From assembly GCF_014295415.1 (NCBI RefSeq), contig NZ_CP052909.1:2790001-2854000 (forward strand): DNA of 64,000 nt. Direction: 5' to 3'. A model generated the notes under the pieces. That model worked only from the letters and a program-made list of their open reading frames with translations. It searched no databases and was not told the origin of the DNA. Made by a program: the position numbers and the translations under genes. Of the stretch, positions 1,971 to 15,189 are shown piece by piece (positions within the stretch are counted from its first letter, which is position 1; each line of letters opens with the position of its first letter). This stretch comes from Constantimarinum furrinae. GTDB taxonomy: Bacteria > Bacteroidota > Bacteroidia > Flavobacteriales > Flavobacteriaceae.

Positions 1971-3476
1971 ATGGATGTTTTTAATAAGGGTAGCAACGTT
2001 TTTAAAATACTTTCTGAAGCCGTTTCAGAAGGAATTATAATCGTTAATCAAAACCAAACTATAGTTGCTACAAATATGGCTGCCAACTCATTATTTGGCT
2101 ACGCAGAAGATGAACTAATGGGTCAACATCTTGATGTTTTAATTCCTAAAAGGTATCACTCAAATCATCATATACACGTAAGGGGTTTTATGAAAAAGAG
2201 TGATAAACGCCAAATGGGTCACGGTAGGGATCTCTTCGGTCTTCGCAAAGACGGATCACAGTTTCCTGTAGAAGCAGGACTTAATCCATTTACGATTTAC
2301 GATAATGATTATGTAATGGCACTAGTTATTGATATTTCGGTTCGAAAAAAGGCGGAGCAAGAACTTAAACATTGGGCCAATATATTTAATGAATCGCTCA
2401 ACGAGATTTTTATTTTTGATGCTAGAACACTCAAATTCATTGACGTAAATAAGGGAGCGTTAAATAATATAGGATACACGCTAGAAGAATTACGCTCAAT
2501 GACGCCTGTTGATATTAAACCAAATTTTACACTAGTTAAATTTAACAACTTAATAGCACCACTCTTAAACGATCTGGAAGCTAAATTAAAATTCAATACT
2601 ATTCATAAGCGTAAGGATGGAAGTATCTATCCCGTTGAAGTACACTTACAAAAATCGAAAACAGGAGAGAACGATTTACTGGTAGCTATCATTTTAGATG
2701 TTACAGAGCAAGAAGCATATACTCAAAAATTAGAGCAACAAGTTACAGAACGAACAAGACGTCTAGAAGAGGCTCTTAACAAAGAAAAAGAATTGAATGA
2801 GTTGAAAACTAAGTTCTTATCACTAGTTTCGCACGAGTTTAAAACACCGCTGAGTGGAATATTGACATCGGCCACTTTGGCGGGAAAATACACAGAGTCC
2901 GAGCAACAAGAGAAGCGTGATAAGCATTTAAAGACTATCCAATCTAAAGTCAAATATCTTAATAATATTATCAACGACTTTTTATCTATTGAGCGTTTAG
3001 AAAGTGGTAAGGTAAAATATATATTTTCTAATTTTCCGTTGAGTAAAGTGGTAAATGAAGTAATTTATGATGCCAATATGTTATTAAAAGAGGGACAGCA
3101 TATAGAATATCCCGAAAATATTGACAGCATCTTCATAGATTTTGACGAGAAGATATTAGAATTGATTTTGACAAACCTTATCAATAATGCAATAAAATAC
3201 TCCTCAGAAAATTCCACGATACATATTATGGCAGAAACTCAAGCTAAGGAGCTCGTATTGACCGTTAAAGATGAAGGTATTGGTATTCCTGAGAATGAGC
3301 AAAAATATATTTTCAATAGGTATTTTAGAGCAGAGAATGCCTTACTTAATCAAGGTACAGGTATTGGTCTCAACATTGTTAAAACCCATTTGGAAAATCT
3401 GGGCGGCGCAATTACCTTTACCAGTATTCAAGAAAGAGGGACAGAATTTAAAGTTACCATCCCTACTGATGCTTAA
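1971..3476 (+). CDS. PAS-PAS sensor histidine kinase, possibly FixL-like
   Basis: The 501-residue kinase has no membrane segment, so it should sense a cytoplasmic signal. PAS1 spans about 10-125 and PAS2 about 135-250. A coiled coil (252-285) leads to HisKA with phospho-acceptor His288 in SLVSHEFKTPL. The HATPase domain shows an N box (NLINNAIKYS), G1 (DEGIGIP) and G2 (GTGIGLNIV). PAS1 aligns without gaps to the FixL haem-binding stretch: His66 falls on the FixL proximal histidine and Arg86 on its distal arginine, before RKDGSQFP. Many PAS domains without haem share part of this pattern, so oxygen sensing is an inference. The next gene, 12 bp downstream, is the obvious partner regulator. Confidence 0.88.
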   Translation: MDVFNKGSNVFKILSEAVSEGIIIVNQNQTIVATNMAANSLFGYAEDELMGQHLDVLIPKRYHSNHHIHVRGFMKKSDKRQMGHGRDLFGLRKDGSQFPVEAGLNPFTIYDNDYVMALVIDISVRKKAEQELKHWANIFNESLNEIFIFDARTLKFIDVNKGALNNIGYTLEELRSMTPVDIKPNFTLVKFNNLIAPLLNDLEAKLKFNTIHKRKDGSIYPVEVHLQKSKTGENDLLVAIILDVTEQEAYTQKLEQQVTERTRRLEEALNKEKELNELKTKFLSLVSHEFKTPLSGILTSATLAGKYTESEQQEKRDKHLKTIQSKVKYLNNIINDFLSIERLESGKVKYIFSNFPLSKVVNEVIYDANMLLKEGQHIEYPENIDSIFIDFDEKILELILTNLINNAIKYSSENSTIHIMAETQAKELVLTVKDEGIGIPENEQKYIFNRYFRAENALLNQGTGIGLNIVKTHLENLGGAITFTSIQERGTEFKVTIPTDA

Positions 3477-3488
3477 TCGTTTACTCTT

Positions 3489-4538
3489 ATGAAAACCATC
3501 CTGTTAATAGAAGATGATACCGCACTTCGCGAGAATACAGCAGAACTTTTAGAACTAGCAAACTATGCGGTATACAGCGCTCCAAACGGTAAAATAGGAA
3601 TTGAAGTTGCAAGAGAAAAGCTTCCGGACTTAATAGTTTGTGATATTATGATGCCAGAAGTAGATGGATATGGTGTCTTGGAGGCTGTGTCAATAGACCC
3701 CACCACTTCACACATTCCATTTATTTTTCTTTCAGCAAGGACTGAACATAAAGAAATAAGAAAGGGAATGGATCTAGGAGCTGATGACTATTTGACAAAA
3801 CCGTTTGAAGAAGATGAACTTTTAAGTGCCATTGAAAGTAGATTGGCAAAAGCAGAAATCCTCTCAAATGCTTTAGAGAATTCTACTAAAAAAAAAGTAA
3901 ATGAAGGTGATATTAGAAACCTAAATGAACTCAAAAATCTCTTTGATGATACCGGGGAAATTAGGCATTTCGAAAAAGGAGAGATCATTTATAAAGAGGG
4001 AAGCTATTCGACAAAAATCTATCTTATCCTTAATGGCATCGTAAAGAGTACAAAAATGGAAGACAGTGGAAAAGAATTAATCACTGCCCTTCATAAACCA
4101 GATGAATTTTTAGGATTTACATCATTTGCAAATAATATTCCTTATCAAGAAACAGCTACAGCTGTAGAAAAAGTGGAATTGGCTGGAATTTCTAAAGAAG
4201 AGCTTAAGAGCATTCTTGGCAAAAATCAAAATGTATCGCTGGAACTGGTAAATGTGCTTACTGAAAATATTTCAGAGATTAAAGAGCAGCTCCTTCAAAT
4301 GGCCTATAGTAGTGTTCGAAGAAAAACGGCCCAAACTATCCTTCAGTTTGCACGAATTTTAAATAGAAATCCTGAAGATGCTATTAGAATTGCACGTAGC
4401 GATCTGGCGAGTGTGGCGGGAATCGCAACAGAAAGCTTAATTCGAACTATTTCAGAATTCAAAAAAAAGGGGCTTATTGAAATTGAAGGTAGGAATATAA
4501 AAATCCTTCAACTTTCGGCCTTAGAAGAAGTAGAATAA
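3489..4538 (+). CDS. response regulator with Crp/Fnr-type effector domain
   Basis: The product has 349 residues. The receiver domain (1-120) has the acidic pair Glu8/Asp9-Asp10, phospho-acceptor Asp52 in CDIMMPE and Lys104 in TKPF. A cyclic-nucleotide-binding-type beta-roll (about 148-260) and a Crp-type winged helix (about 285-345, recognition region ATESLIRTISEFKKKGLI) follow. There is no N-terminal cysteine cluster, so unlike Fnr it should be switched by phosphorylation and not by an iron-sulphur cluster. It sits 12 bp after the kinase gene. It is the best candidate to bind the TGA-N6-TCA palindromes found before the stress, OsmC, Hsp20 and nos units of this window. Confidence 0.9.
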   Translation: MKTILLIEDDTALRENTAELLELANYAVYSAPNGKIGIEVAREKLPDLIVCDIMMPEVDGYGVLEAVSIDPTTSHIPFIFLSARTEHKEIRKGMDLGADDYLTKPFEEDELLSAIESRLAKAEILSNALENSTKKKVNEGDIRNLNELKNLFDDTGEIRHFEKGEIIYKEGSYSTKIYLILNGIVKSTKMEDSGKELITALHKPDEFLGFTSFANNIPYQETATAVEKVELAGISKEELKSILGKNQNVSLELVNVLTENISEIKEQLLQMAYSSVRRKTAQTILQFARILNRNPEDAIRIARSDLASVAGIATESLIRTISEFKKKGLIEIEGRNIKILQLSALEEVE

Positions 4539-4547
4539 TAACAAAAC

Positions 4548-4590
4548 TGACTTTTATCATATCTTACCTTTAGGCTCGTTGATACTTTTG
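4548..4590 (+). promoter_or_regulatory. Crp/Fnr-type site with -7 element before usp gene 1
   Basis: TGA-CTTTTA-TCA lies at 4548-4559 and TACTTTTG, a perfect TAnnTTTG element, at 4583-4590. The centre-to-element-end distance is 36.5 bp. If transcription starts about five bases after the element, the site is centred near -41.5, the class II activator position. The gene starts at 4608. Confidence 0.7.
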
Positions 4591-4607: not shown

Positions 4608-5438
4608 ATGCAGCAAATTTTAATACCTACCGATTTTTCCGATAATGCGTGGAATGCAACAATTTATGCCTTGCAGTTTTTCAAAACTCAGAATATCACC
4701 TTTCATTTTTTACACATAGATATCTCTCTCCAGGTTGATGATGAACTACATTACAATGGTGTTTTTACTAAAAAAGAAATCTCAAAAGAAAAAACGGCTA
4801 ACATGGTGGATTGGATGCACAAAATAAACATTCACTACCCTAATCCGAATCATAAATTTAGATTTTCGATACGACCGGGATTATTTATAGCATGTTTTAG
4901 AAACTACGTAACAAAGGAAAACATTGACCTAATCGTAATGGGGACTAAAGGAGCTTCAGGCCTAAAAGAAATGACAATTGGCAGTAAAACTGGTGCTGTT
5001 ATAAAGCGTATTAAATGCCCCAACTTAGTAATACCTGAAGAGGCCCAATTCACGAAACCCCTTAATATTGGTTTCCCGACTGATTTTAATATGTTTTACA
5101 AACAAAGAATAATTCGAACATTATTGGAGATAGCTAATACTTATCAGTCATCAATAAAGGTACTTCGAGTTGCTCAAAATGAAAAACCTATGGATAAGGT
5201 CCAAAAAACAAATAGGAAACATCTTATACAATATCTCCATGAGATTTCACATAGTTTTCACGTAATTGATAATCCTATTCTTGAGAGTGCCTTACAATCC
5301 TTTGTAAATTCGATGCATATAGATATGGTGGCCATGATCGCTAAGAATTTAAATTTCTTTCAACGTTTATTATTTAAGCCTCAGGTGGAACAAATTAGTT
5401 ATCACATGCAGATCCCATTTCTAGTTTTGCACGAATAG
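4608..5438 (+). CDS. tandem universal stress protein 1
   Basis: This 276-residue cytoplasmic protein has two UspA-type domains. The first (about 1-145) starts ILIPTDFSDNAW and ends with the ATP-binding signature GTKGASG...GS followed by CPNLVIP. The second (about 150-276) is degenerate and lacks the G-x2-G-x9-GS loop. Two-domain Usp proteins in Bacteroidota are usually induced by starvation or low oxygen. Four paralogues lie in this window (4608, 5564, 6424 and 14292), each with only one intact nucleotide loop. It has its own TGA-N6-TCA site and is separated from the next usp gene by 125 bp holding a second such promoter. Confidence 0.88.
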   Translation: MQQILIPTDFSDNAWNATIYALQFFKTQNITFHFLHIDISLQVDDELHYNGVFTKKEISKEKTANMVDWMHKINIHYPNPNHKFRFSIRPGLFIACFRNYVTKENIDLIVMGTKGASGLKEMTIGSKTGAVIKRIKCPNLVIPEEAQFTKPLNIGFPTDFNMFYKQRIIRTLLEIANTYQSSIKVLRVAQNEKPMDKVQKTNRKHLIQYLHEISHSFHVIDNPILESALQSFVNSMHIDMVAMIAKNLNFFQRLLFKPQVEQISYHMQIPFLVLHE

Positions 5439-5497: not shown

Positions 5498-5540
5498 TGA
5501 TAATTATCATTTTAAGATTATGGCTGATACCATAGATTTG
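5498..5540 (+). promoter_or_regulatory. Crp/Fnr-type site with -7 element before the usp-usp-nuclease-MBL operon
   Basis: TGA-TAATTA-TCA is at 5498-5509 and TAGATTTG at 5533-5540, again with 36.5 bp from palindrome centre to element end. The ATG of the first gene is at 5564, leaving a short leader. This is the clearest site of the series and would drive four tightly packed genes up to 9486. Confidence 0.75.
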
Positions 5541-5563: not shown

Positions 5564-6412
5564 ATGAGAACGATAATTATTCCAACAGATTTTTCAGAAA
5601 CTGCGATGAATGCCATTCGCTACTCCATGGAACTTTTTAAATATGAGAAGAGCAAATTTATCGTGACGAACGCTTTTGCAGACGAAGTATACGAGAATAC
5701 AATGGAAATGGATCGAGAATTTTTCGAGGAATATAGAGATAAAGTGGAGTCAGCTACAGACCGATTATTGCAAAAAGTAGTTGCCGAAATGTTACAGATT
5801 TCTGGGAATCCGAAACACTCGTATCATTACAAACCGCTATTTGAAAGTTTGGTTGATGGTGTAAATGACTTGGTAGATAAACACAATGCTGATGCTGTTT
5901 TAATGGGAACCAAAGGAAATAGTAACTGTGATGACGTAACGTTTGGGAGCCAAACACTTCAGGTCATTAAATACGTAAAGTGTCCAGTAATTGCAGTACC
6001 TGTGGGCTACCACGGCCACCCTCTTAAGAATATTTTATTTCCGACAGATTATATGTTACCCTTTAAACGTCGTGAATTGAAGCTGGTCAGCACTCTAGCA
6101 GCACGATTTGCTTCTATGGTACATTTTCTACATATATCGGAAGCAAAGGAGCTTTCTCATAGACAAAAGGATAATAAAGCAATTGCATCCTGTTCTTTTC
6201 AAGAAAATCAGGTTTCTCACATAAGAGTACCCGGTAAAGACATCACTCAAGCAATTAATAAAACGATGACTGCGTCCTCTGTAGATATGCTAGTAATGGT
6301 AAACCAAAGACACTCTTATCTTGAAAACATTTTATATCGCTCTACTATCGAGAAAATCGGTTTGGATATAAAGATTCCATTCCTAGTATTACAAAATTTA
6401 CAACGCCATTAA
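5564..6412 (+). CDS. tandem universal stress protein 2
   Basis: The 282-residue protein has two Usp domains. The first opens with IIIPTDFSETAM and carries the nucleotide loop as GTKGNSNCDDVTFGS (about 125-140), followed by CPVIAVP. The second begins near 155 (NILFPTDYMLPF) and has lost its loop. It should be a cytoplasmic ATP-binding stress protein of unknown precise action. It is the first gene of a four-gene operon (gaps 11 and 5 bp, then a 14-bp overlap) that continues with another usp, an ATP-cone nuclease and a beta-CASP hydrolase. Confidence 0.88.
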   Translation: MRTIIIPTDFSETAMNAIRYSMELFKYEKSKFIVTNAFADEVYENTMEMDREFFEEYRDKVESATDRLLQKVVAEMLQISGNPKHSYHYKPLFESLVDGVNDLVDKHNADAVLMGTKGNSNCDDVTFGSQTLQVIKYVKCPVIAVPVGYHGHPLKNILFPTDYMLPFKRRELKLVSTLAARFASMVHFLHISEAKELSHRQKDNKAIASCSFQENQVSHIRVPGKDITQAINKTMTASSVDMLVMVNQRHSYLENILYRSTIEKIGLDIKIPFLVLQNLQRH

Positions 6413-6423
6413 TACTCACAACA

Positions 6424-7272
6424 ATGAAACGTATTCTATTACCCACAGATTTTTCAGAAAATGCTTGGAATGCATTGCATTATGCTAGCAATTTATACAA
6501 AAATGAAGAGGTGGATTTCTACCTTCTCAACGCTTTTACTACCCATAATTTTTCTTTGGACAATATGATGGTCCCAGAACCGGGTGAAAAATGGTATGAC
6601 GATGCCAAAACACGTTCGGAAAACGAACTTGAAAATATATTAAAACGAATTGAAAAGCTAGAGGTGCCGAGCAACCATACTTATTTTACAATAGCAGTTT
6701 TCAATACACCATTAGATGCTGTAAAACATCTTGTGGAAGATAAGGACATAGATTTAGTGATCGCATCCAACAAGGGTGAAACAAACGATGTGGATAGTAT
6801 ATTAGGTAGTAACAGTATCAATTTTATGGAAAAAATACGAAATTGTCCGGTACTTATAATTCCTGCAGAAGCCATGTTAGGAGAAATAAATGAGATTGTA
6901 TTCCCAACTAGCTTTAAAACCCATTACAAGCGTAAAGAACTTACTCATTTAAACCAAATAGCGCGCATTTCCAATGCACCTATTCGTATTTTGCACGTGG
7001 GTCAAAAGGAAAAACTTACCAAAAAACAAAAACAAAATAAACTTCTTTTGGAAGAATGTTTTGAAGGTCTTGGCTATACTTTTCATTTTTTAGAAAATAC
7101 CGAGGTGCAGACTGGACTAAATCTTTTTGTGCAAAGCCGAAACAGCGGTATGATTTCATTTATAAATAAAAAACACAGCTTCTTTGGTTCTATATTTTCA
7201 AAACCAATGGTAAAAGATTTGGGTTTTAATGCCAAAGTGCCTGTATTGGCACTGCACGATTTGCGTAACTAA
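6424..7272 (+). CDS. tandem universal stress protein 3
   Basis: The 282-residue protein is a paralogue of its upstream neighbour with the same opening (ILLPTDFSENAW). Its first-domain loop reads SNKGETNDVDSILGS, where the usual MGT start is replaced by ASN, so nucleotide binding may be altered. The second domain (about 155-282) has no loop. It lies 11 bp after the previous usp gene and 5 bp before the ATP-cone nuclease, so it is clearly co-transcribed. The three plus-strand copies probably arose by local duplication. Confidence 0.87.
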   Translation: MKRILLPTDFSENAWNALHYASNLYKNEEVDFYLLNAFTTHNFSLDNMMVPEPGEKWYDDAKTRSENELENILKRIEKLEVPSNHTYFTIAVFNTPLDAVKHLVEDKDIDLVIASNKGETNDVDSILGSNSINFMEKIRNCPVLIIPAEAMLGEINEIVFPTSFKTHYKRKELTHLNQIARISNAPIRILHVGQKEKLTKKQKQNKLLLEECFEGLGYTFHFLENTEVQTGLNLFVQSRNSGMISFINKKHSFFGSIFSKPMVKDLGFNAKVPVLALHDLRN

Positions 7273-7277
7273 ATAAT

Positions 7278-8129
7278 ATGAAAAAAGAAAATCTTCAAAT
7301 TGTAAAATCTTCTGGTGACAAAGTAGATTTTTCTATATCCAAATTACGAAGCAGTTTATATAGAAGCGGTGCTGACGAGTTAACGGTCGATAACATCATG
7401 AATGTGATACACGAAGAGTTGTATCAAGGCATATCTACCAAGGAAATCTACAACCGGGCCTATGCACTTTTGAAAAAAAGTAAGTCGATATATGCTTCTA
7501 AATACAAACTTAAAAAAGCGATATATGAATTAGGTCCTACCGGTTTTCCATTTGAAAATTTTATTGGGGCATTATTGGAATATTCAGGTTATCACGTGGA
7601 GGTAGGTAAAATTATGCAGGGAAAATGTGTATCACACGAAGTGGATGTGATTGCTTCAAAAAATGGACAGCACATTGTGGCAGAATGCAAATTTCATAGT
7701 GAAAAAACCACAACCTGTAATGTTAAGATACCTCTTTATATTAATTCGCGGTATCGGGATATTATTGACCAATATAAAAATAGTACCAAGTGTCCTAACG
7801 AGGGTTGGGTTGTCACTAATACTCGATTTACTGTAGATGCACTTACTTACGGTAAATGTTCAGGACTCTATTTGTTAAGCTGGGATTATCCTCGGGACAA
7901 TGGGTTAAAAGACCGTATCGATAAGTTGGGGTTATACCCTATTACGGTTTCAACATTACTCACCAAAAGAGAAAAACAGTTCCTATTGAGTAGAGAAATA
8001 GTTTTGTGTCGCCAATTATTGAATGACGTTTTTTATTTAGATCATTTAGGAATTTCAGAAACAAGAAAAGAAAAAATACAATCTGAAATTTCGATGCTTT
8101 GTAAACCTGATAATAATGAACAATATTAA
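7278..8129 (+). CDS. ATP-cone domain fused to Mrr-like PD-(D/E)XK nuclease
   Basis: The 283-residue protein begins with an ATP-cone (about 4-88: QIVKSSGDKVDFSISKLR...), the nucleotide-sensing module known from ribonucleotide reductase and NrdR. A restriction-endonuclease-like domain (about 90-190) follows. Its catalytic residues can be read as Asp123 in HEVDVIA and Glu136-Cys-Lys138 in AECKFH, with Glu93 upstream. The C-terminal 90 residues are unassigned. This architecture implies a DNA- or RNA-cleaving enzyme gated by ATP or dATP. There is no methylase or restriction partner nearby. It sits between usp genes and a beta-CASP hydrolase in one operon, which suggests a stress role over classical restriction. 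The substrate is unknown. Confidence 0.8.
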   Translation: MKKENLQIVKSSGDKVDFSISKLRSSLYRSGADELTVDNIMNVIHEELYQGISTKEIYNRAYALLKKSKSIYASKYKLKKAIYELGPTGFPFENFIGALLEYSGYHVEVGKIMQGKCVSHEVDVIASKNGQHIVAECKFHSEKTTTCNVKIPLYINSRYRDIIDQYKNSTKCPNEGWVVTNTRFTVDALTYGKCSGLYLLSWDYPRDNGLKDRIDKLGLYPITVSTLLTKREKQFLLSREIVLCRQLLNDVFYLDHLGISETRKEKIQSEISMLCKPDNNEQY

Positions 8130-9486
8130 AATCCATTTTTTGGGAGCTTCGGGAACGGTAACCGGATCTAAATTTCTTCTAGAAACTCCCATACAAAACT
8201 TACTTATTGACTGTGGAATGTTTCAAGGTCTAAAAGAACTTCGGGAGCAAAACTGGCGGGACTTCCCTTTCGATGTTCCGGCTATCGATGCTGTTTTTTT
8301 AACACACGGTCATCTAGATCATACGGGATATTTGCCTAGATTGGTTAAACAGGGATTTACAGGAAAAATAATCGGTTCTGCACCCACGTTAGAAATCGCA
8401 AAAATCATATTGCTAGATAGCGCAAAGATTAATGAAGAGGATGCAGAAAAGGCTAATGACGAAAATTATAGTAAACACTATCCAGCACTTCCCTTTTATT
8501 CCATGGAAGAGGCCGAAAAGACTATTAAAATGTTCAATTCTGTTACAAAAGATACTTGGCATTCCCTTTCAGACCACGTAAAGTACCGCTTTAGATATAA
8601 TGGCCACATAATAGGTGCTACTTTCATCGAAATGGAAGTATACGGAAAAACATTTGTATTTTCTGGCGACATAGGAAGGCAGGATGATCTGCTATTATTC
8701 CCGCCAGAAAAACCACAATGGGCAGATTATGTGTTTATTGAAAGTACTTACGGCAATAAATTGCACCCACAGGAAAGTGTTTCAGAAAAATTAATCACAC
8801 TCATCAATAAAGCAATACATGATCGAGGCACATTAATTATCCCTTCTTTTGCAGTAGAACGGTTGCAAGCCTTGATGTTTCTTTTATGGAAGTTATACAA
8901 CGAACGTCGCATTCCTAATATTCCAATTTTTATAGATAGTCCAATGGGCAATAATGTCTTGGATGTTTTTGAACGTTATATGGGTTGGCATAAACTTCCA
9001 CCAGGCGAATTAATGGCGATAAAGCAACGTATGAATATTATCACTTCCTATAAAGAAACTTGGGAAACTATAGACGATCCAAGACCCAAAATCGTTATTG
9101 CTGGAAGCGGGATGGTTACCGGAGGTCGGGTGTTAACCTATTTAAAGCAATTAATAGATGAACCAAACACCACTATTTTAATGGTAGGATATCAAGCCGA
9201 AGGCACCCGCGGGAGACTATTATTGGAAGGCGCACACGAGCTCAAAATCTTTGGAAAATATTATACGGTCAAAGCTACAGTGCATCATATTGAAAGCTTA
9301 TCCGCACATGCAGATCAGGCTGAACTTATACATTGGTTGAATGATATAAAGAATATTCCAGAAATTACCTTTTTGATTCACGGAGAACCTACAGCTTTAG
9401 ATGCATTACGGGTTAAAATTCGAGATACCTATGGTTGGAGAGCGTCTATTCCGAGACTGAATGAAATAGTAGAAATTTTAATATAA
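8116..9486 (+). CDS. MBL-fold, beta-CASP metallo-hydrolase (RNA exonuclease/endonuclease type)
   Basis: The 456-residue protein has the metallo-beta-lactamase motif HGHLDH at 64-69, further ligands near SGDIGR and a C-terminal HIESLSAHAD segment. The beta-CASP insertion includes PSFAVERLQ and SGMVTGGR. Such YSH1-like proteins are zinc-dependent nucleases acting on RNA; a cytoplasmic location is expected, as there is no signal peptide. The start overlaps the ATP-cone nuclease gene by 14 bp, so translation is probably coupled. Homologues in bacteria often sit next to universal stress and phosphoribosyltransferase genes; here two usp genes precede it. It is the last gene of the operon. Confidence 0.9.
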   Translation: MNNIKIHFLGASGTVTGSKFLLETPIQNLLIDCGMFQGLKELREQNWRDFPFDVPAIDAVFLTHGHLDHTGYLPRLVKQGFTGKIIGSAPTLEIAKIILLDSAKINEEDAEKANDENYSKHYPALPFYSMEEAEKTIKMFNSVTKDTWHSLSDHVKYRFRYNGHIIGATFIEMEVYGKTFVFSGDIGRQDDLLLFPPEKPQWADYVFIESTYGNKLHPQESVSEKLITLINKAIHDRGTLIIPSFAVERLQALMFLLWKLYNERRIPNIPIFIDSPMGNNVLDVFERYMGWHKLPPGELMAIKQRMNIITSYKETWETIDDPRPKIVIAGSGMVTGGRVLTYLKQLIDEPNTTILMVGYQAEGTRGRLLLEGAHELKIFGKYYTVKATVHHIESLSAHADQAELIHWLNDIKNIPEITFLIHGEPTALDALRVKIRDTYGWRASIPRLNEIVEILI

Positions 9487-10014: not shown

Positions 10015-10470
10015 TTATTCAATTATTATTTGAATTTCCATAGTGATTTTTGATTTTATAGAGTTGGAAATTAAACAGACAGCTTCAGATTTTTCAACAA
10101 TACGTTTCGCACGCCCTACATCTTTTTCGTTTTTAATGTAGACTTTAGGTTTCAGCATTACTTCAGTCATTAGAAATTTCCCATCTACTTTCTCTAATAT
10201 ACCTTTCGCATTACAACTGAATGCTGAAAATTCTAATTTTGAGTTCTCTGCTATGGCCAAAAAAGTAGTCATTAAGCAACTACTTACCGCGGCTGTGAAT
10301 AAATGCTCCGGTGACCATATATTAGGCATTCCCATAGGAAATTGTGGTGGTGTTGCTACCTCAATACAGTTGGAAGAAGCCGTCTTGCTTTCGTTTATTT
10401 CTGGAGAGCACATTAATCCTTTACGGTCTTGACTCCAGTTAATATCTACATTATAAATATGTCTTTCCAT
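10015..10470 (-). CDS. OsmC/Ohr-family peroxidase-like protein
   Basis: The 151-residue protein shows the family's two cysteines, Cys65 in VSSCLMTTF and Cys132 in EAVCLISNS, spaced as in OsmC and Ohr, which reduce organic hydroperoxides through a thiolate. SPEHLFTAA before Cys65 is also typical, including the conserved glutamate. The N-terminus is short and matches stand-alone OsmC proteins. The protein should be cytoplasmic. A TGA-N6-TCA palindrome lies 61 bp upstream on the minus strand, tying it to the same regulon as the usp genes. Confidence 0.88.
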   Translation of the reverse strand: MERHIYNVDINWSQDRKGLMCSPEINESKTASSNCIEVATPPQFPMGMPNIWSPEHLFTAAVSSCLMTTFLAIAENSKLEFSAFSCNAKGILEKVDGKFLMTEVMLKPKVYIKNEKDVGRAKRIVEKSEAVCLISNSIKSKITMEIQIIIE

Positions 10471-10499: not shown

Positions 10500-10542
10500 G
10501 AAATTTAGAAAGGAAGGAGCTATTAGTAAATGATATATGTCA
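10500..10542 (-). promoter_or_regulatory. Crp/Fnr-type site and near-consensus -7 element before osmC-like gene
   Basis: TGA-TATATG-TCA lies at 10531-10542. On the minus strand TAAATTTC (10507-10500) matches TAnnTTTG in all but the last base. It lies exactly 36.5 bp from the palindrome centre, the same geometry as at 4548, 5498 and 15230. Confidence 0.6.
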
Positions 10543-11192: not shown

Positions 11193-11235
11193 TGACAATT
11201 ATCATTTTTAAACCCTTACATACGAGTTATTTTCA
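11193..11235 (+). promoter_or_regulatory. Crp/Fnr-type site before the hsp20 gene
   Basis: TGA-CAATTA-TCA is at 11193-11204. At the spacing seen elsewhere (ending 11235) the sequence is TATTTTCA, a weak match to TAnnTTTG. The hsp20 ATG is at 11275. Confidence 0.55.
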
Positions 11236-11274: not shown

Positions 11275-11721
11275 ATGTCTTTAGTAAAATTGAATAGAAA
11301 AAAAATTCCTTGGATCAATGATGTCACAACACACTGGTTCAATACCGATGATTTTTTCACAGATGACTTCATGTCACGAGGGGCTAATCTACCTGCAATG
11401 AATGTGAAGGAAAATCCAAAAAACTTCGAAGTCGAACTGGCCGTTCCAGGTTTTGACAAGACGGATATTGAGGTGTCTTTAGAAAATGATATACTACACG
11501 TTTGTGCTAAAAAAAAACAAGATGCAGTGGAAGAGAATGAAAATGGCTACACTCGAAGGGAGTTTAGCTATAACTCTTTTGATCGCAAACTGCAAATGCC
11601 CAAATCAGTAAATCAAAAGAAAGATGTAAAAGCTACTTACAAAAATGGTATTCTTAAACTGCAACTCGCTAAAAGTGATGCTGCCGTTCAATCATCAAAA
11701 AAGTTGATTGAAATAGCTTAG
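11275..11721 (+). CDS. Hsp20/alpha-crystallin small heat-shock protein
   Basis: The 148-residue protein contains an alpha-crystallin domain from about 40 to 140. It begins ENPKNFEVELAVPGF, has the beta-strand region DILHVCAKK in the middle, and ends with the conserved A-x-x-x-N-G-I-L-x-L motif (TYKNGILKLQL). The N-terminal arm (1-38) is short. It should form oligomers that hold unfolded proteins in the cytoplasm without ATP. It is monocistronic, with a TGA-N6-TCA site upstream and a hairpin terminator at 11737-11777, so induction by oxygen limitation or stress is likely. Confidence 0.93.
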   Translation: MSLVKLNRKKIPWINDVTTHWFNTDDFFTDDFMSRGANLPAMNVKENPKNFEVELAVPGFDKTDIEVSLENDILHVCAKKKQDAVEENENGYTRREFSYNSFDRKLQMPKSVNQKKDVKATYKNGILKLQLAKSDAAVQSSKKLIEIA

Positions 11722-11794: not shown

Positions 11795-12226
11795 ATGAAT
11801 TCGCATTTTAAATATATAGAGTGGCGTGATACAAGTGGTCTACACCAAGACACACTTCATTCTCTTTCTGAGCTTCATTTTTTGAAAGATGAGCTTCGAT
11901 TTCTAGAAGATCTCGTGGAAGAGCATACACTTCAATTATTTTATGGTAAAGACCAGATTGAGAACAAATCGATTCTTAATCAATTAGATAATCACTCAAA
12001 GCGGTTGTTAATATTGTTAAAAGAACTAGAAGCACATAAAAATAAATTGCAGGTATTAATGGACAATAATGATGTCCTAGGTGAATTGCGTGAATACAAA
12101 GATGAACATTATAAACTCCTTTTAGAAGAAATGGATTTTCATTCAGACGTAAAAAACACCAAACGAACCATTTTTGAAATACTTTCAGTTCTAATAAAAA
12201 AGAACAAACAGAAAAAATTGCTATAA
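11795..12226 (+). CDS. small coiled-coil protein, function unknown
   Basis: The 143-residue product is acidic and predicted to be almost wholly helical. Long heptad-like leucine patterns run from about 20 to 110 (for example LSELHFLKDELRFLEDLVEE). It has no cysteine, signal peptide or membrane segment. Similar short coiled-coil proteins accompany Usp and Hsp20 genes in Flavobacteriaceae, so a stress-related scaffold or chaperone-like role is possible. I do not recognise a named family. It follows the hsp20 terminator; no promoter was identified with confidence. Confidence 0.6.
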   Translation: MNSHFKYIEWRDTSGLHQDTLHSLSELHFLKDELRFLEDLVEEHTLQLFYGKDQIENKSILNQLDNHSKRLLILLKELEAHKNKLQVLMDNNDVLGELREYKDEHYKLLLEEMDFHSDVKNTKRTIFEILSVLIKKNKQKKLL

Positions 12227-12658: not shown

Positions 12659-13303
12659 ATGAAGTTAATCTTACAATTTAGTCGCTTGTTTATACTAGCA
12701 CTCTTGCTAATTAACTGTGGATCCACAAAGCTAATCCAGCAATATAAAAATCCGGACACAGCGTATTTTCAAGCTAATAAAGTTTTGGTCGTGGGTATTT
12801 CTGCCGAAAAAGAATTGAGACGCAACTACGAAAAAAAGATGACCGATGAACTCGATAAGAAAGGTGTAATTGCAGTAAAAAGCATCGATTTTTTTGAAAC
12901 GTCATTTACAGATAATAAAAACTCTCTGGCACAACTAGACAAAATTGAACTACGGTTATTAGAAGCTGGTTTTGACGCTATACTGTTTACAAAAATTACA
13001 GGGCAAGAGAGCAGGGTTACGATGGTTGATTCTTATCGAAATTTTTCTAAAAGCTATCAATCTTTTGAAGAATATTTCTATGGAAACATGCATCTGTATT
13101 ATAAAGAACAATTAGAGCGTTATCAAGTATACACCACTGAAACTTCCCTTTATTGCATTTGTCCAGGAAAGGAACGCGAACTTTTATGGCGAGGAGAAAT
13201 TGAAGTGGTTGACGCCAATAAAATTAATCGAAACATTAGCAGTTTTATCACCGTTTTATTTAAAAGTCTAAAAGAAAATAAACTTTTAATTCTCGAAGAA
13301 TGA
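12659..13303 (+). CDS. lipoprotein of unknown function
   Basis: The 214-residue product starts with a lipoprotein signal peptide, lipobox ending at Cys20 (INCGST). A mixed alpha/beta domain follows, with KVLVVGIS near residue 42 and a second strand-like segment, FDAILFTKITG, near 105. This resembles the small periplasmic DUF4136-like lipoproteins of Bacteroidota, but I cannot confirm the family. It overlaps the next gene, a 2-hydroxyacid dehydrogenase, by four bases (ATGA), so the two are translationally coupled although their compartments differ. Confidence 0.6.
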   Translation: MKLILQFSRLFILALLLINCGSTKLIQQYKNPDTAYFQANKVLVVGISAEKELRRNYEKKMTDELDKKGVIAVKSIDFFETSFTDNKNSLAQLDKIELRLLEAGFDAILFTKITGQESRVTMVDSYRNFSKSYQSFEEYFYGNMHLYYKEQLERYQVYTTETSLYCICPGKERELLWRGEIEVVDANKINRNISSFITVLFKSLKENKLLILEE

Positions 13304-14289
13304 AAGTATTGATATATAGCGCAAAGCCATTTGAAATCCCCTTGCTACAAGAAGCAAATAGAAAAAAACATCAAATAGATTTTACAGAGGTACGCCTTAA
13401 TTCGGACAGCGCGATGCTCGCATTAAACTACGATGCTATTTCCCTTCTTTCTGCAGATGACCCTTCGCCAAACGTTCTTGAAAAGCTTCAAGATTTTGGA
13501 GTAAAGTATATCACCCTGCGTTCTGCCGGTTATGATAACATCAATTTAAGGTTGGCCCATAAATTAAATTTGAAAGTGGCCAATACTCCCAGCTACTCTC
13601 CAAATGCCATTGCCGAACATGCAATAATGCTTCTTCTAGCTTTCAATAGAAAAGTTACAATGGCTCAGAATCAAACACTTCGTTATAATTTCATAATAGA
13701 TAATTTAATTGGTTTCGATCTAAAAGATAAAATTATTGGAGTAATGGGTACCGGGAAAATTGGTAGTGTCCTTATTAAAATCTTACACGGATTCGACTGT
13801 ACTATTTTGGCCAATGATACTAGTAGTAATGAGCAGTTAATAACTGATTTCAATGTTTCGTACATTTCAAAAAATGCGCTCGCTAAAGAGGCAGAAGTGA
13901 TCTTTATTTGTTTACCTCTAACTGCATCAACTCGTTATCTAATAGATAAAGAATTTCTAAGTAATCTTAAAAAAAGACCTATCATAGTAAATGTCGCTCG
14001 TGGCGCCATCGTGCAAACTACAGAAATTTTAAAAGCCTTGGATACGGATATAATTAGTGGATACGCAACCGATGTCTATGAGCATGAACATGGTATTTTC
14101 TTTTATGACCGGTCCAATGATAGACCAAAGGACGAAGTATTGCATCGGTTACTGCATCATCGTAAAACCTTAGTAACACCTCATCAAGCATTCGCTACGA
14201 ATGAAGCATTACAAAATATTGCTGTAGCAACTATCAAAAATCTAAATGCTTGGGAAAGTGGTATACACTCAATAAACGAGCTTACTTAA
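13300..14289 (+). CDS. D-2-hydroxyacid dehydrogenase (D-lactate dehydrogenase type)
   Basis: The 329-residue enzyme shows the family's two-domain layout. The catalytic domain's first half is 1-100, the Rossmann domain about 100-300 with GVMGTGKIGS near 148-157, then VNVARGAIV (catalytic arginine), a DVYEHE segment (glutamate) and TPHQAFAT (catalytic histidine near 297). The EHEHGIFFYDRS insertion before it is typical of fermentative D-lactate dehydrogenases, which reduce pyruvate with NADH. It would fit a low-oxygen programme like that suggested by the neighbouring regulatory sites. It starts inside the stop of the lipoprotein gene and ends 3 bp before the converging usp gene. Confidence 0.88.
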   Translation: MKVLIYSAKPFEIPLLQEANRKKHQIDFTEVRLNSDSAMLALNYDAISLLSADDPSPNVLEKLQDFGVKYITLRSAGYDNINLRLAHKLNLKVANTPSYSPNAIAEHAIMLLLAFNRKVTMAQNQTLRYNFIIDNLIGFDLKDKIIGVMGTGKIGSVLIKILHGFDCTILANDTSSNEQLITDFNVSYISKNALAKEAEVIFICLPLTASTRYLIDKEFLSNLKKRPIIVNVARGAIVQTTEILKALDTDIISGYATDVYEHEHGIFFYDRSNDRPKDEVLHRLLHHRKTLVTPHQAFATNEALQNIAVATIKNLNAWESGIHSINELT

Positions 14290-14291
14290 TC

Positions 14292-15125
14292 TTATCGATG
14301 CAAGAATAGTAAAGGTATAAGACTTCCGTAAGCCAATTTTGAATTTTCTGAGCCAAATAGTAAGCGATCTAAGAATGTTTCCTTTTCAATAAAAGCGGCA
14401 TGAATATCTACTTTTAAGAGTTGAGTTGCAGTATTCACTGCTATTAATCCAGGAATAGTATTAAGACTATAATAGGTATATGGGTATTCGGGAAATAAGG
14501 CCCGTACACATTTACTATCTTCCCTGCGAGAGATAACGATGGCATCATCATCGAGCTCTAATACATTCAACTCACATTGATGCATATTGAGCATTTCTTT
14601 AAAAGCTTTAATATCAATATAAGAAATATCTTCACATCGATGTGTGGTAAACAAAGCTCGCCTAACACTTGTATATTCATAATGCTCTGGAATCGTTAAA
14701 GTTGGACAATTTATTTTCCGTATTACTTGTAATGTATTACTACCAAAAAGTACTTCTTTTGCTCCTGTGGCACCATTAGTGCCCATTATAATAAGATCTA
14801 TGGAATGGATTTGCACAGTCTGATCTATTGCAGAAATGAAATTGTCATAGTTAAACAACCCTTGAAAAGTATATGATTGCATCGAGAATTGCTTGTCTAA
14901 CTTTTTAATTAATTGATTAAGCAACTTTTTATTATCGTTAGCTATGCTGTCATAAATGGTATTTGTCTTCGAACCAGCTACTAAATCATCACTAATATAC
15001 TCTGACATCTTCTTTACATTGAGAATGTAGAAATTACACTCCCAATTCATGAAAAAATGCATGGCGTAATCGATTGCATTTAGTGAGTTTTCTGAAAAGT
15101 CTGTGGGCAAAAGGATGTTTTTCAT
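14292..15125 (-). CDS. tandem universal stress protein 4
   Basis: This 277-residue minus-strand protein is related to the three plus-strand copies. It opens with ILLPTDFSENSL, and its first-domain nucleotide loop reads GTNGATGAKEVLFGS (about 127-141), followed by CPTLTIP. The second domain (about 160-277) lacks the loop. It is transcribed divergently from the cytochrome c/nos unit, and the shared 172-bp interval has two TGA-N6-TCA palindromes, one facing each way. Its 3' end converges on the hydroxyacid dehydrogenase. Confidence 0.87.
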   Translation of the reverse strand: MKNILLPTDFSENSLNAIDYAMHFFMNWECNFYILNVKKMSEYISDDLVAGSKTNTIYDSIANDNKKLLNQLIKKLDKQFSMQSYTFQGLFNYDNFISAIDQTVQIHSIDLIIMGTNGATGAKEVLFGSNTLQVIRKINCPTLTIPEHYEYTSVRRALFTTHRCEDISYIDIKAFKEMLNMHQCELNVLELDDDAIVISRREDSKCVRALFPEYPYTYYSLNTIPGLIAVNTATQLLKVDIHAAFIEKETFLDRLLFGSENSKLAYGSLIPLLFLHR

Positions 15126-15146: not shown

Positions 15147-15189
15147 GGAAACTACTATGGAAGTGGTCACTATACAATGATGAATGTCA
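15147..15189 (-). promoter_or_regulatory. Crp/Fnr-type site before usp gene 4
   Basis: TGA-TGAATG-TCA is at 15178-15189. At the shared 36.5-bp spacing, the minus strand reads TAGTTTCC (15154-15147), a six-of-eight match to TAnnTTTG. Confidence 0.5.

Follow-up and report, generated by a model that had tools for sequence, protein, structure and literature searches.

An operon of universal stress proteins with a probable ATP-sensing nuclease and its dedicated beta-CASP RNase in Constantimarinum furrinae

The window, a 64,000-nucleotide stretch of contig NZ_CP052909.1 of the marine bacterium Constantimarinum furrinae, contains an operon in which two universal stress protein (Usp) genes precede a dedicated enzyme pair: ACM, a probable ATP-sensing nuclease that combines an ATP-cone with an Mrr-type domain, and a beta-CASP RNase. 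The arrangement, set under a stress switch of its own, suggests a coupling of RNA or DNA breakdown to the energy state of the cell. We give an even chance to the explanation that the operon supplies the effectors of a stress response to low energy or low oxygen, with its nucleases gated by adenine nucleotides. The four-gene order is confirmed to the base, with all genes on the plus strand: Universal stress protein 2 (5564..6412; 282 aa; Pfam Usp 80.9 bits), Universal stress protein 3 (6424..7272; 282 aa; Pfam Usp 53.1 bits), ACM (7278..8129; 283 aa; ATP-cone at approximately residues 1-80, AF1548/Mrr-type PD-(D/E)XK nuclease domain at approximately residues 85-278) and its dedicated partner, a beta-CASP metallo-RNase of the TTHA0252 type (8116..9486; 456 aa; Beta-Casp 106 bits, RMMBL 70 bits). 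The spacing given in the original prediction, with gaps of 11 and 5 bp and a 14-bp overlap, is exact throughout; its interpretation overall is partly supported.

ACM and the beta-CASP RNase are a dedicated pair. Across 296 Bacteroidota genomes, all 33 places where a beta-CASP scores at least 698 bits adjoin ACM, and 32 lie no more than 50 bp from it. The neighbourhood was expected to recur, and it does: of 80 named Flavobacteriaceae loci, 75 have the beta-CASP gene straight after ACM and 2 more have a single ORF separating them, and a beta-CASP of at least 698 bits is adjacent at 33 of the 54 ACM places found phylum-wide in the same 296 genomes. The other 21 ACM places are without an adjacent high-scoring beta-CASP, which indicates that ACM can act alone. 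In a tree of 50 beta-CASPs, from which TTHA0252 itself was left out, those from ACM-bearing loci form one group (38/38; support 98/96) that includes a chlamydial plasmid copy. That unrelated stress genes lie together by chance might be argued from the Usp, Hsp20 and P-type ATPase neighbours, which differ between lineages, but the unbroken adjacency, the single tree group and the shared operator described below already disfavour this reading, and it is scarcely credible.

The beta-CASP protein carries both the beta-CASP and RMMBL domains by which TTHA0252-type RNases are assigned, and it matches TTHA0252 over its full length (233 bits). Residues H64, H66, D68, H69, H164, D185, H398 and H422, which we take to be the metal ligands (HxHxDH and the later ones), are invariant (23/23). 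By score, type VII Cas14 is about as close as TTHA0252 (231 bits), and the nuclease fold of ACM is similar to those of Card1, Can2 and Cdn1 (Z approximately 10), as would befit an anti-phage system in which a nucleotide-sensing nuclease like the CARF nucleases acts with a Cas14-like beta-CASP effector. This is very unlikely: the protein scores 376 bits on the curated Cas14 model, whose cutoff is 800, and its assignment to type VII Cas14 was rejected; PADLOC matches the two nucleases only at E 0.001 to 0.0034 and the Usps not at all; and the operon is conserved and lies under a stress operator. The dual-use defence role initially envisaged finds no support: the PADLOC matches of the two nucleases are no stronger than E 0.001, and the searches yielded neither a phage record nor a confirmed viral contig.

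The nuclease domain of ACM had been called Mrr-like. Its PD-(D/E)XK type holds, but its nearest solved relative is AF1548 (PDB 1y88; phmmer 2.3e-25), not Mrr proper. The predicted structure of ACM (pLDDT 93) aligns with AF1548 across 183 residues of the nuclease part (Z 22.2, rmsd 3.4). Among Pfam models, the ATP-cone passes (PF03477; 26.8 bits, cutoff 25.8), with Mrr_cat (PF04471; 20.9 bits, cutoff 21) and AF1548-like_C (PF22357; 20.9 bits, cutoff 23.9) falling just below. The residues proposed to be catalytic, D123, E136 and K138, are invariant in 41/41 Bacteroidota homologues, so that the predicted active site, D-x(n)-ExK, is intact; they are equally invariant in 80/80 named Flavobacteriaceae loci, 7/7 further loci of the family and both plasmid copies. 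The fold relatives of this domain include several DNA-cutting restriction and repair enzymes, and the matches, at Z 9 to 11, to EndoMS and to a repair endonuclease of Pyrococcus would suit a pair engaged in DNA or RNA quality control, by repair or by mRNA decay, that only happens to accompany stress genes, its ATP-cone reading a dATP/ATP replication signal as in NrdR. The available text on TTHA0252, which suggests that the enzyme shares in global mRNA decay, points the same way (PMC4229858). Such a role is nonetheless improbable, given that, in the various lineages, most of the neighbours that could be named belong to stress, redox, metal transport or energy functions, and that no repair gene recurs among the part of the neighbour clusters that was identified.

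The ATP-cone of ACM has the fold of that of NrdR (Z 11.5, rmsd 1.5), and in this respect the proposal of ATP sensing stands. It is weakened at the phosphate-binding Lys-Arg pair: Lys is kept in 41/41 homologues, but the residue after it is Ala in 21, Ser in 10 and Tyr in 5 (36/41 together), with others besides. Since the pair is reduced in these 36 to Lys with Ala, Ser or Tyr, the ligand of ACM is unproven. Though the pair is incomplete, Lys alone may suffice for phosphate; Thr54 is kept in 39/41, and ATP sensing by ACM is plausible from the modelled structure. The papers searched contain no biochemistry of ACM, and we know of no such work. Both the ATP control and the substrate of the pair are what we infer. 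Among the papers listed, ATP-cones are treated mainly in ribonucleotide reductase and NrdR.

The original prediction placed the operon behind one TGA-N6-TCA promoter. The palindrome is present as TGATAATTATCA (5498..5509), 66 bp 5' of the ATG, and such sites occur far above chance; it is not, however, an isolated promoter, as boxes also lie at 1919, 4548, 10531 and 11193. With several operator boxes around the operon, the unit is better described as an island that takes in a third Usp, a PAS histidine kinase and a receiver-CRP regulator. The PAS-PAS histidine kinase (1971..3476, plus strand; Pfam PAS_9, HisKA, HATPase_c), probably the signal input of the island, has the box at 1919 upstream; in the family, a box precedes 20 of the 29 kinase genes scored. 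Downstream are the candidate activator of the regulon, a receiver-CRP/FNR-type response regulator (3489..4538, plus strand; REC, cNMP_binding and HTH_Crp_2), and Universal stress protein 1 (4608..5438, plus strand; Pfam Usp 71 bits), which is preceded by the operator TGACTTTTATCA (4548..4559). Beyond the operon lie an OsmC-family peroxiredoxin (10015..10470, minus strand; box at 10531), an Hsp20 chaperone (11275..11721, plus strand; box at 11193), which is preceded by a box in 23 of 24 cases scored, a D-2-hydroxyacid (lactate-type) dehydrogenase (13300..14289, plus strand; Pfam 2-Hacid_dh_C) and a further Usp facing away (14292..15125, minus strand; boxes at 15178 and 15230). The island also includes a thioredoxin gene and an S30AE hibernation-factor gene, the latter with a box approximately 67 bp upstream. 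The Usp genes were added mostly within the Flavobacteriaceae: of 13 survey loci with a similar Usp, 12 belong to the window's family, and elsewhere the pair occurs without Usp.

The TGAY-N4-RTCA palindrome is the predicted operator of this regulon, with the family consensus [AC]TGAY-AWWT-RTCA[TG]. In 81 Flavobacteriaceae loci (the first 20 kb of the window plus 80 others) it has 350 intergenic sites against 11.3 expected from single-base shuffling, and is therefore more than a chance sequence; 9 of the 61 sites in the genome fall within 19 kb. The box is usually followed 23 bp downstream by a TAnnTTTG-like promoter element, here TAGATTTG (5533..5540, plus strand), a Bacteroidota-type -7 element. 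The exact TAnnTTTG lies near 54 of 306 boxes, at an offset of 23 in 50 of the 54. Within the window's family, the enrichment of boxes is limited to genomes that carry the receiver-CRP regulator. The 13 loci of such genomes contain 50 sites (2.7 expected), and the 8 loci of genomes without a match to the regulator contain 1 (1.7 expected). Even in regulator-bearing genomes, boxes are absent from 3 of 13 loci in the family and from 3 of 4 in other families. Among the 22 ACM-bearing genomes of the family, 9 showed no regulator (strict E cut, 7 candidates scored per genome), which argues that the regulon is not essential to the pair. The helix motif G-x-[AS]-x-E-[ST]-x-I-R is present in 30 of 31 relatives of the regulator. 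FNR uses four cysteines for its iron-sulphur cluster; among the 31, cysteines number at most three in 24 and at least four in 7 (totals only, irrespective of position). Identity as FNR was rejected (curated model 65.7 bits, cutoff 228); PADLOC matches the regulator at E 0.0001 to 0.001.

The regulon supports well the original view of a stress or dormancy system, and a route from signal to effector can be proposed. The PAS histidine kinase would phosphorylate the receiver-CRP protein, which would bind TGAY-N4-RTCA approximately 41.5 bp before a predicted transcription start and, as the spacing to the promoter element suggests, switch on the island as a class II activator. The island would then yield Usps, a chaperone, proteins of peroxide and thiol defence, a dehydrogenase of the lactate type and a ribosome-hibernation factor, together with the nuclease pair, whose genes overlap. 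ACM and its RNase would work together, probably in contact, with adenine nucleotides at the ATP-cone setting the nuclease off or on, such that RNA, or less likely DNA, would be cut only upon a change in energy state. The likely purpose would be to clear or recycle mRNA and rRNA during ribosome hibernation.

In other genomes the pair keeps company with energy metabolism. ACM, beta-CASP, phosphorylase and PRPP synthetase genes form an unbroken run on Pontibacter and Criblamydia plasmids, the latter also carrying phosphoketolase, glucan phosphorylase and acetate kinase. Clusters of phosphorylase and PRPP synthetase lie near the pair at loci L042 and L046, and the phosphorylase lies beside it at these and at L152 and L153. 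Phosphofructokinase, aldolase, GAPDH-type and hydroxyacid dehydrogenase genes accompany the pair at L041; the family of the window's own hydroxyacid dehydrogenase is found just upstream of it on the Pontibacter plasmid and at L041. At L040 an ATP-cone fused to a glucoamylase-type domain is encoded next door, with the same gene cluster in L039 and L043. Among the matches listed, beta-CASP and phosphorylase are at most 100 bp apart in 25 of 28 plasmid records with both; at E 1e-5, no more than two plasmid records matched ACM, and none of the four proteobacterial plasmid regions viewed has an ACM gene annotated. In the available text on Bradyrhizobium diazoefficiens, bll3115-3117 (MBL-fold hydrolase, PRPP synthetase and thymidine-phosphorylase family) are up at both protein and transcript level in microoxia (0.5% oxygen; less stringent list) and are not marked there as targets of the oxygen regulators NifA or FixK2 (PMC6515984).

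These plasmid runs and clusters, the Criblamydia acetate kinase and phosphoketolase, and the microoxic co-induction speak for RNA salvage, whereby the pair would shred RNA to nucleoside monophosphates and an AMP-phosphorylase-like enzyme, PRPP synthetase, phosphoketolase and acetate kinase would convert these to ATP and acetate. The ATP-cone would throttle the process, and the window's operon would be a reduced form of it. The step from RNA to ATP is a bold extension, and salvage as a whole is doubtful. Of 296 Bacteroidota genomes, just 4 match the phosphorylase profile (one weakly, 210 bits; one in part), and the window's genome offers no useful match, just a 335-aa frame that matches at 21%; the phosphorylases score just under the curated AMP-phosphorylase cutoff of 535 (506, 480 and 500); and beta-CASP enzymes need not free all nucleotides. 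Low oxygen as the signal is drawn from a different phylum and gene set, that of Bradyrhizobium.

The preferred reading, nucleases gated by adenine nucleotides under stress control, can be carried further to an ATP-gated self-digestion module, which we offer tentatively and think rather unlikely. As ATP falls, ACM and beta-CASP would degrade rRNA or mRNA; full versions would burn the nucleotides via AMP-phosphorylase, PRPP and phosphoketolase-acetate kinase to ATP; a hibernation factor would protect the remaining ribosomes; and in marine Flavobacteriaceae the module would fall under the receiver-CRP regulon. The preferred reading, if true, would link adenine nucleotide level directly to nucleic-acid breakdown in dormant or oxygen-starved bacteria. 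The predicted active site of ACM is intact, the beta-CASP partner is closely tied to it, and there are a defined operator and a candidate regulator. ACM and a neighbour of the pair also add two output domains to those of ATP-cones, a nuclease and a glucoamylase-type domain.

Several known systems resemble parts of the island. Class II activation by CRP/FNR proteins shares with it a palindrome with TGA half sites at a fixed distance from a promoter element and a Crp-type helix with Glu and Arg, but the regulator of the island belongs to the response regulators and has a receiver domain. The FNR operator is TTGAT...ATCAA, whereas that of the island is [AC]TGAY...RTCA[TG]. In bll3115-3117 an MBL-fold hydrolase gene adjoins PRPP-synthetase and thymidine-phosphorylase-family genes, as the pair does on plasmids; by contrast, the window's genome is without the phosphorylase, and the proteobacterial plasmid regions viewed are without an annotated ACM. 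TTHA0252 (PDB 2dkf and relatives), matched by the beta-CASP over its full length, is described in the available text as a 5'-3' exo-RNase and probable endo-RNase of Thermus that degrades RNA and whose loss changes mRNA levels (PMC4229858); the ACM-linked beta-CASPs differ in forming their own tree group, with the top-scoring places all beside ACM. The ATP-cones of NrdR and ribonucleotide reductase match ACM in fold (Z approximately 9 to 11.5, rmsd 1.5 to 2.4), but where K50 and R51 of NrdR bind phosphates according to the available text (PMC9110341), ACM has Ala, Ser or Tyr at the Arg position in 36/41, and its output domain is a nuclease. AF1548 of Archaeoglobus, a predicted restriction-type endonuclease, has the same nuclease and C-terminal fold as ACM and a common predicted D/E/K site, given as 38D, 51E and 53K in the available text (PMC1821046). 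Its solved chain covers only residues 85-278 of ACM, which differs in carrying a fused N-terminal ATP-cone and in being followed by the beta-CASP gene.

The operon at window positions 5564-9486 comprises two genes for universal stress proteins (Usp), an ATP-cone/Mrr-like nuclease gene (ACM; 7278-8129, + strand) and a beta-CASP gene (8116-9486), and its four genes, two gaps and one overlap agree with the original prediction. The stress or dormancy theme of that prediction was borne out, as the operon belongs to a stress regulon of many Flavobacteriaceae. The findings support a reading of ACM and beta-CASP (the pair) as a dedicated two-nuclease module plugged into this regulon in many members of the family. 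In the 2.99 Mb source genome, genes for a PAS histidine kinase, a response regulator (receiver-CRP, with REC, cNMP_binding and HTH_Crp_2 domains; 3489-4538, + strand) and one further Usp lie 5' of the operon on the same strand, and genes for OsmC, Hsp20 and a 2-hydroxyacid dehydrogenase lie 3' of it. This island of stress genes extends left of the window (genome 2786473-2788792, equivalent to L159:13473-15792); just outside the window, an S30AE-family (hibernation factor) gene (genome 2,787,651-2,787,959) has its own operator about 67 bp upstream and is followed by another Usp gene, with a thioredoxin gene close by. Two small families with no or weak family matches (window 11795-12226 and 12659-13303) are recurrent members of the island across many Flavobacteriaceae, and window 26675-52165 contains long ORFs of 1447, 1250, 858 and 811 aa, all on one strand. 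By ACM protein, the closest named relatives are also Flavobacteriaceae, namely the MAG UBA1903 (89%) and Patiriisocius marinus (85%). The marine flavobacterium Dokdonia sinensis (locus L079) likewise carries the operon. A universal link between Usp and ACM was rejected: Usps similar to those of the window, a definition that misses more distant ones, occur in 13 of 41 survey loci, 12 of these in the window's family. Literature searches found no paper joining ATP-cone, Mrr and universal stress protein, none joining AMP phosphorylase and universal stress protein, and none joining ATP cone, metallo-beta-lactamase and universal stress. They did bring up a Salmonella Fur study that mentions both ATP-cone domain and universal stress protein, a Pseudomonas metalloproteome paper, and two papers in which AMP phosphorylase and RNA degradation occur together.

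The regulon is marked by a palindromic operator, TGAY-N4-RTCA (the box; TGATAATTATCA in the island). Across the first 20 kb of the window and 80 relatives, 350 intergenic boxes were observed against 11.3 expected from single-base shuffling, with a density of 2.2 per kb between genes and 0.08 per kb within them. Some gene of the ACM-bearing run has a box upstream in 69 of 81 loci, and box positions peak 60-70 bp 5' of start codons. Among the cases scored, boxes precede genes for Hsp20 (23/24), Usp2-type proteins (53/63) and histidine kinases (20/29), as well as families each named from one member: DnaJ (8/8), thioredoxin (11/12), S30AE (3/3) and uracil phosphoribosyltransferase (6/8). Just 3 of the 31 ACM genes scored have a box of their own, as their position inside an operon would predict. 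An exact TAnnTTTG, which we take to be the Bacteroidota -7 promoter element, accompanies 54 of the 306 boxes, and in 50 of these cases it begins exactly 23 bp downstream of the box; the profile of all 306 boxes gives a relaxed form of the element (T 81%, A 87%, T 88% and T 94% at the key positions). A mirror control had its maximum at this offset as well (12/19), as would follow if some boxes served two promoters. With this spacing, the box would be centered some 41.5 bp upstream of the predicted transcription start, a class II position. In the source genome, 9 of 61 matches to the extended pattern MTGAYN4RTCAK fall within the island's 19 kb, compared with about 0.4 for an even spread; the reversed pattern has 30 matches genome-wide, and therefore around half of the 61 may be due to chance.

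Receiver-CRP is the likely activator of the stress regulon, and within the family the operator tracks this regulator, with exceptions. In family genomes that have a receiver-CRP match, 13 loci contain 50 intergenic boxes versus 2.7 expected (at least two boxes in 10 loci, none in three), and in family genomes lacking a match, eight loci contain a single box versus 1.7 expected. In other families, 21 loci without the regulator hold six boxes (4.2 expected) and four loci with it hold five (0.7 expected), all in a single locus (L063), with zero in L046, L066 and L069. The box-less loci from regulator-bearing family genomes (L042, L047 and L048) are second or third ACM copies, and L049, whose genome matches the regulator weakly, likewise has no box. 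A strict tie between regulator and ACM was rejected at the genome level, given that the family genomes comprise 13 with both, nine with ACM only, three with the regulator only and five with neither.

The partner of ACM is a beta-CASP protein of the TTHA0252 type, in which the conserved residues that we take to form the metal site are invariant in 23 of 23 sequences. TTHA0252 degrades RNA, and its loss alters mRNA levels in Thermus (PMC4229858). RNA would likewise be the substrate of the pair. ACM was found at 54 places in 49 of 296 Bacteroidota genomes (one split match joined and three short ATP-cone-only matches excluded), and a profile of linked beta-CASPs has matches in 189 of these genomes (E 1e-40); a search by family PF22357 returned zero matches, the source genome included, and is hence uninformative on distribution. 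All 33 beta-CASP places scoring at least 698 bits adjoin ACM (the distance is at most 50 bp for 32 of them and 315 bp for the other), and none of five weaker places (620, 604, 592, 542 and 511 bits) does so, these five being selected from the matches listed and not the next five by score. Because 23 linked sequences served to build the profile, its scores are biased towards them; adjacency is independent of the profile. In the 80 named Flavobacteriaceae loci, which were kept from a genome-contig scan and represent close relatives (coverage outside the phylum comes from plasmid records only), beta-CASP is the next gene 3' of ACM in 75 and is separated from it by one ORF in two; two of the remaining three end at a contig edge and one is without beta-CASP. 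ACM stands without an adjoining beta-CASP at 21 of the 54 places (by the 698-bit set) and in 18 of 40 fetched survey loci, six of which instead carry a glutaredoxin-family gene cluster (named from one member) 3' of ACM. In L045, an ORF convergent to an ACM gene that lacks a beta-CASP encodes a protein with a putative RtcB RNA ligase-like start. A midpoint-rooted tree of 50 beta-CASPs places all 38 sequences from ACM-bearing loci in one group (support 98/96). Copies from a Pontibacter plasmid and a plasmid of the chlamydia Criblamydia belong to this group, so the pair has probably been transferred between phyla. A beta-CASP near this group (L161, genome G210) lies beside genes for Hsp20, receiver-CRP, a histidine kinase and Usp, without ACM.

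Several neighborhoods of the pair are related to energy metabolism. In one locus (L041), it shares a same-strand run with genes for phosphofructokinase, a DeoC/LacD-family aldolase, a GAPDH-type protein, a D-2-hydroxyacid dehydrogenase and Usp. The gene order on the Pontibacter actiniarum plasmid is hydroxyacid dehydrogenase, ACM, beta-CASP, a thymidine-phosphorylase-family gene and PRPP synthetase, and that on the Criblamydia plasmid is phosphoketolase, glucan phosphorylase, ACM, beta-CASP, phosphorylase, PRPP synthetase and acetate kinase. AbiEii/AbiEi toxin-antitoxin genes also occur near the module on the latter plasmid (L153:17872-18822). A second ATP-cone enzyme, in which the cone is fused to a PF10091 glucoamylase-type domain, is encoded two genes after ACM in L040 (10182-11714), and this gene cluster is also present in L039 and L043. 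The phosphorylase falls within the archaeal AMP-phosphorylase group, but its score is just below the equivalog cutoff. When 60 of 115 phosphorylase records were compared with the best 40 and a spread of 60 of 263 beta-CASP records, mostly proteobacterial and including some near-copies, the 28 plasmid records common to both had the two genes within 100 bp of each other in 25 cases and 10-13 kb apart in three. In Bradyrhizobium, bll3115-3117, encoding an MBL-fold hydrolase, PRPP synthetase and thymidine-phosphorylase-family protein, are raised at 0.5% oxygen, with protein log2 changes of 2.9, 4.4 and 2.1 and transcripts up 15.4-, 7.7- and 5.1-fold (PMC6515984). In that source's tables, they are in the less stringent of the lists, which asks for a log2 change of 1 or more in both protein and transcript, outside the 62 significant proteins, and bear no NifA or FixK2 target mark (PMC6515984). 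These microoxia data support an energy- or oxygen-related role, though they come from other bacteria. The purpose of the pair may be recycling in low-energy cells. A universal salvage pathway was rejected for the source genome, in which no AMP-phosphorylase-type gene was found. The original prediction also raised a dual-use defense function; searches with PADLOC and of phage records and viral contigs yielded no useful support, and an anti-phage role for the pair is unlikely.

Judged by sequence and predicted structure, ACM combines an ATP-cone with an AF1548/Mrr-type PD-(D/E)XK domain. AF1548 (1y88) matches it by phmmer (2e-25) and is similar to its AlphaFold model (built from 41 homologues; mean pLDDT 93) at Z 22.2. 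The model also resembles NrdR ATP-cones (Z up to 11.5) and the CARF nucleases Card1, Can2 and Cdn1 as well as AspBHI and EndoMS (Z 9 to 12); a search of solved structures with the ATP-cone fragment alone gave no ATP-cone match. In NrdR, K50 and R51 bind phosphates (PMC9110341). ACM retains the lysine (K10) in 41 of 41 homologues, but 36 of these have Ala, Ser or Tyr in place of the neighboring arginine, a combination that makes a nucleotide ligand likely. Such an ATP-cone would gate the nuclease. The catalytic residues named in the original prediction, D123, E136 and K138, proved invariant in 41 of 41 homologues, as are H120, E121, C137 and R158, with C117, H140 and C194 nearly so; the three are also present in all 80 named loci, in each of seven additional loci of the family and in the two plasmid copies, and they are consistent with the D, E, K site that was predicted for AF1548 (PMC1821046).
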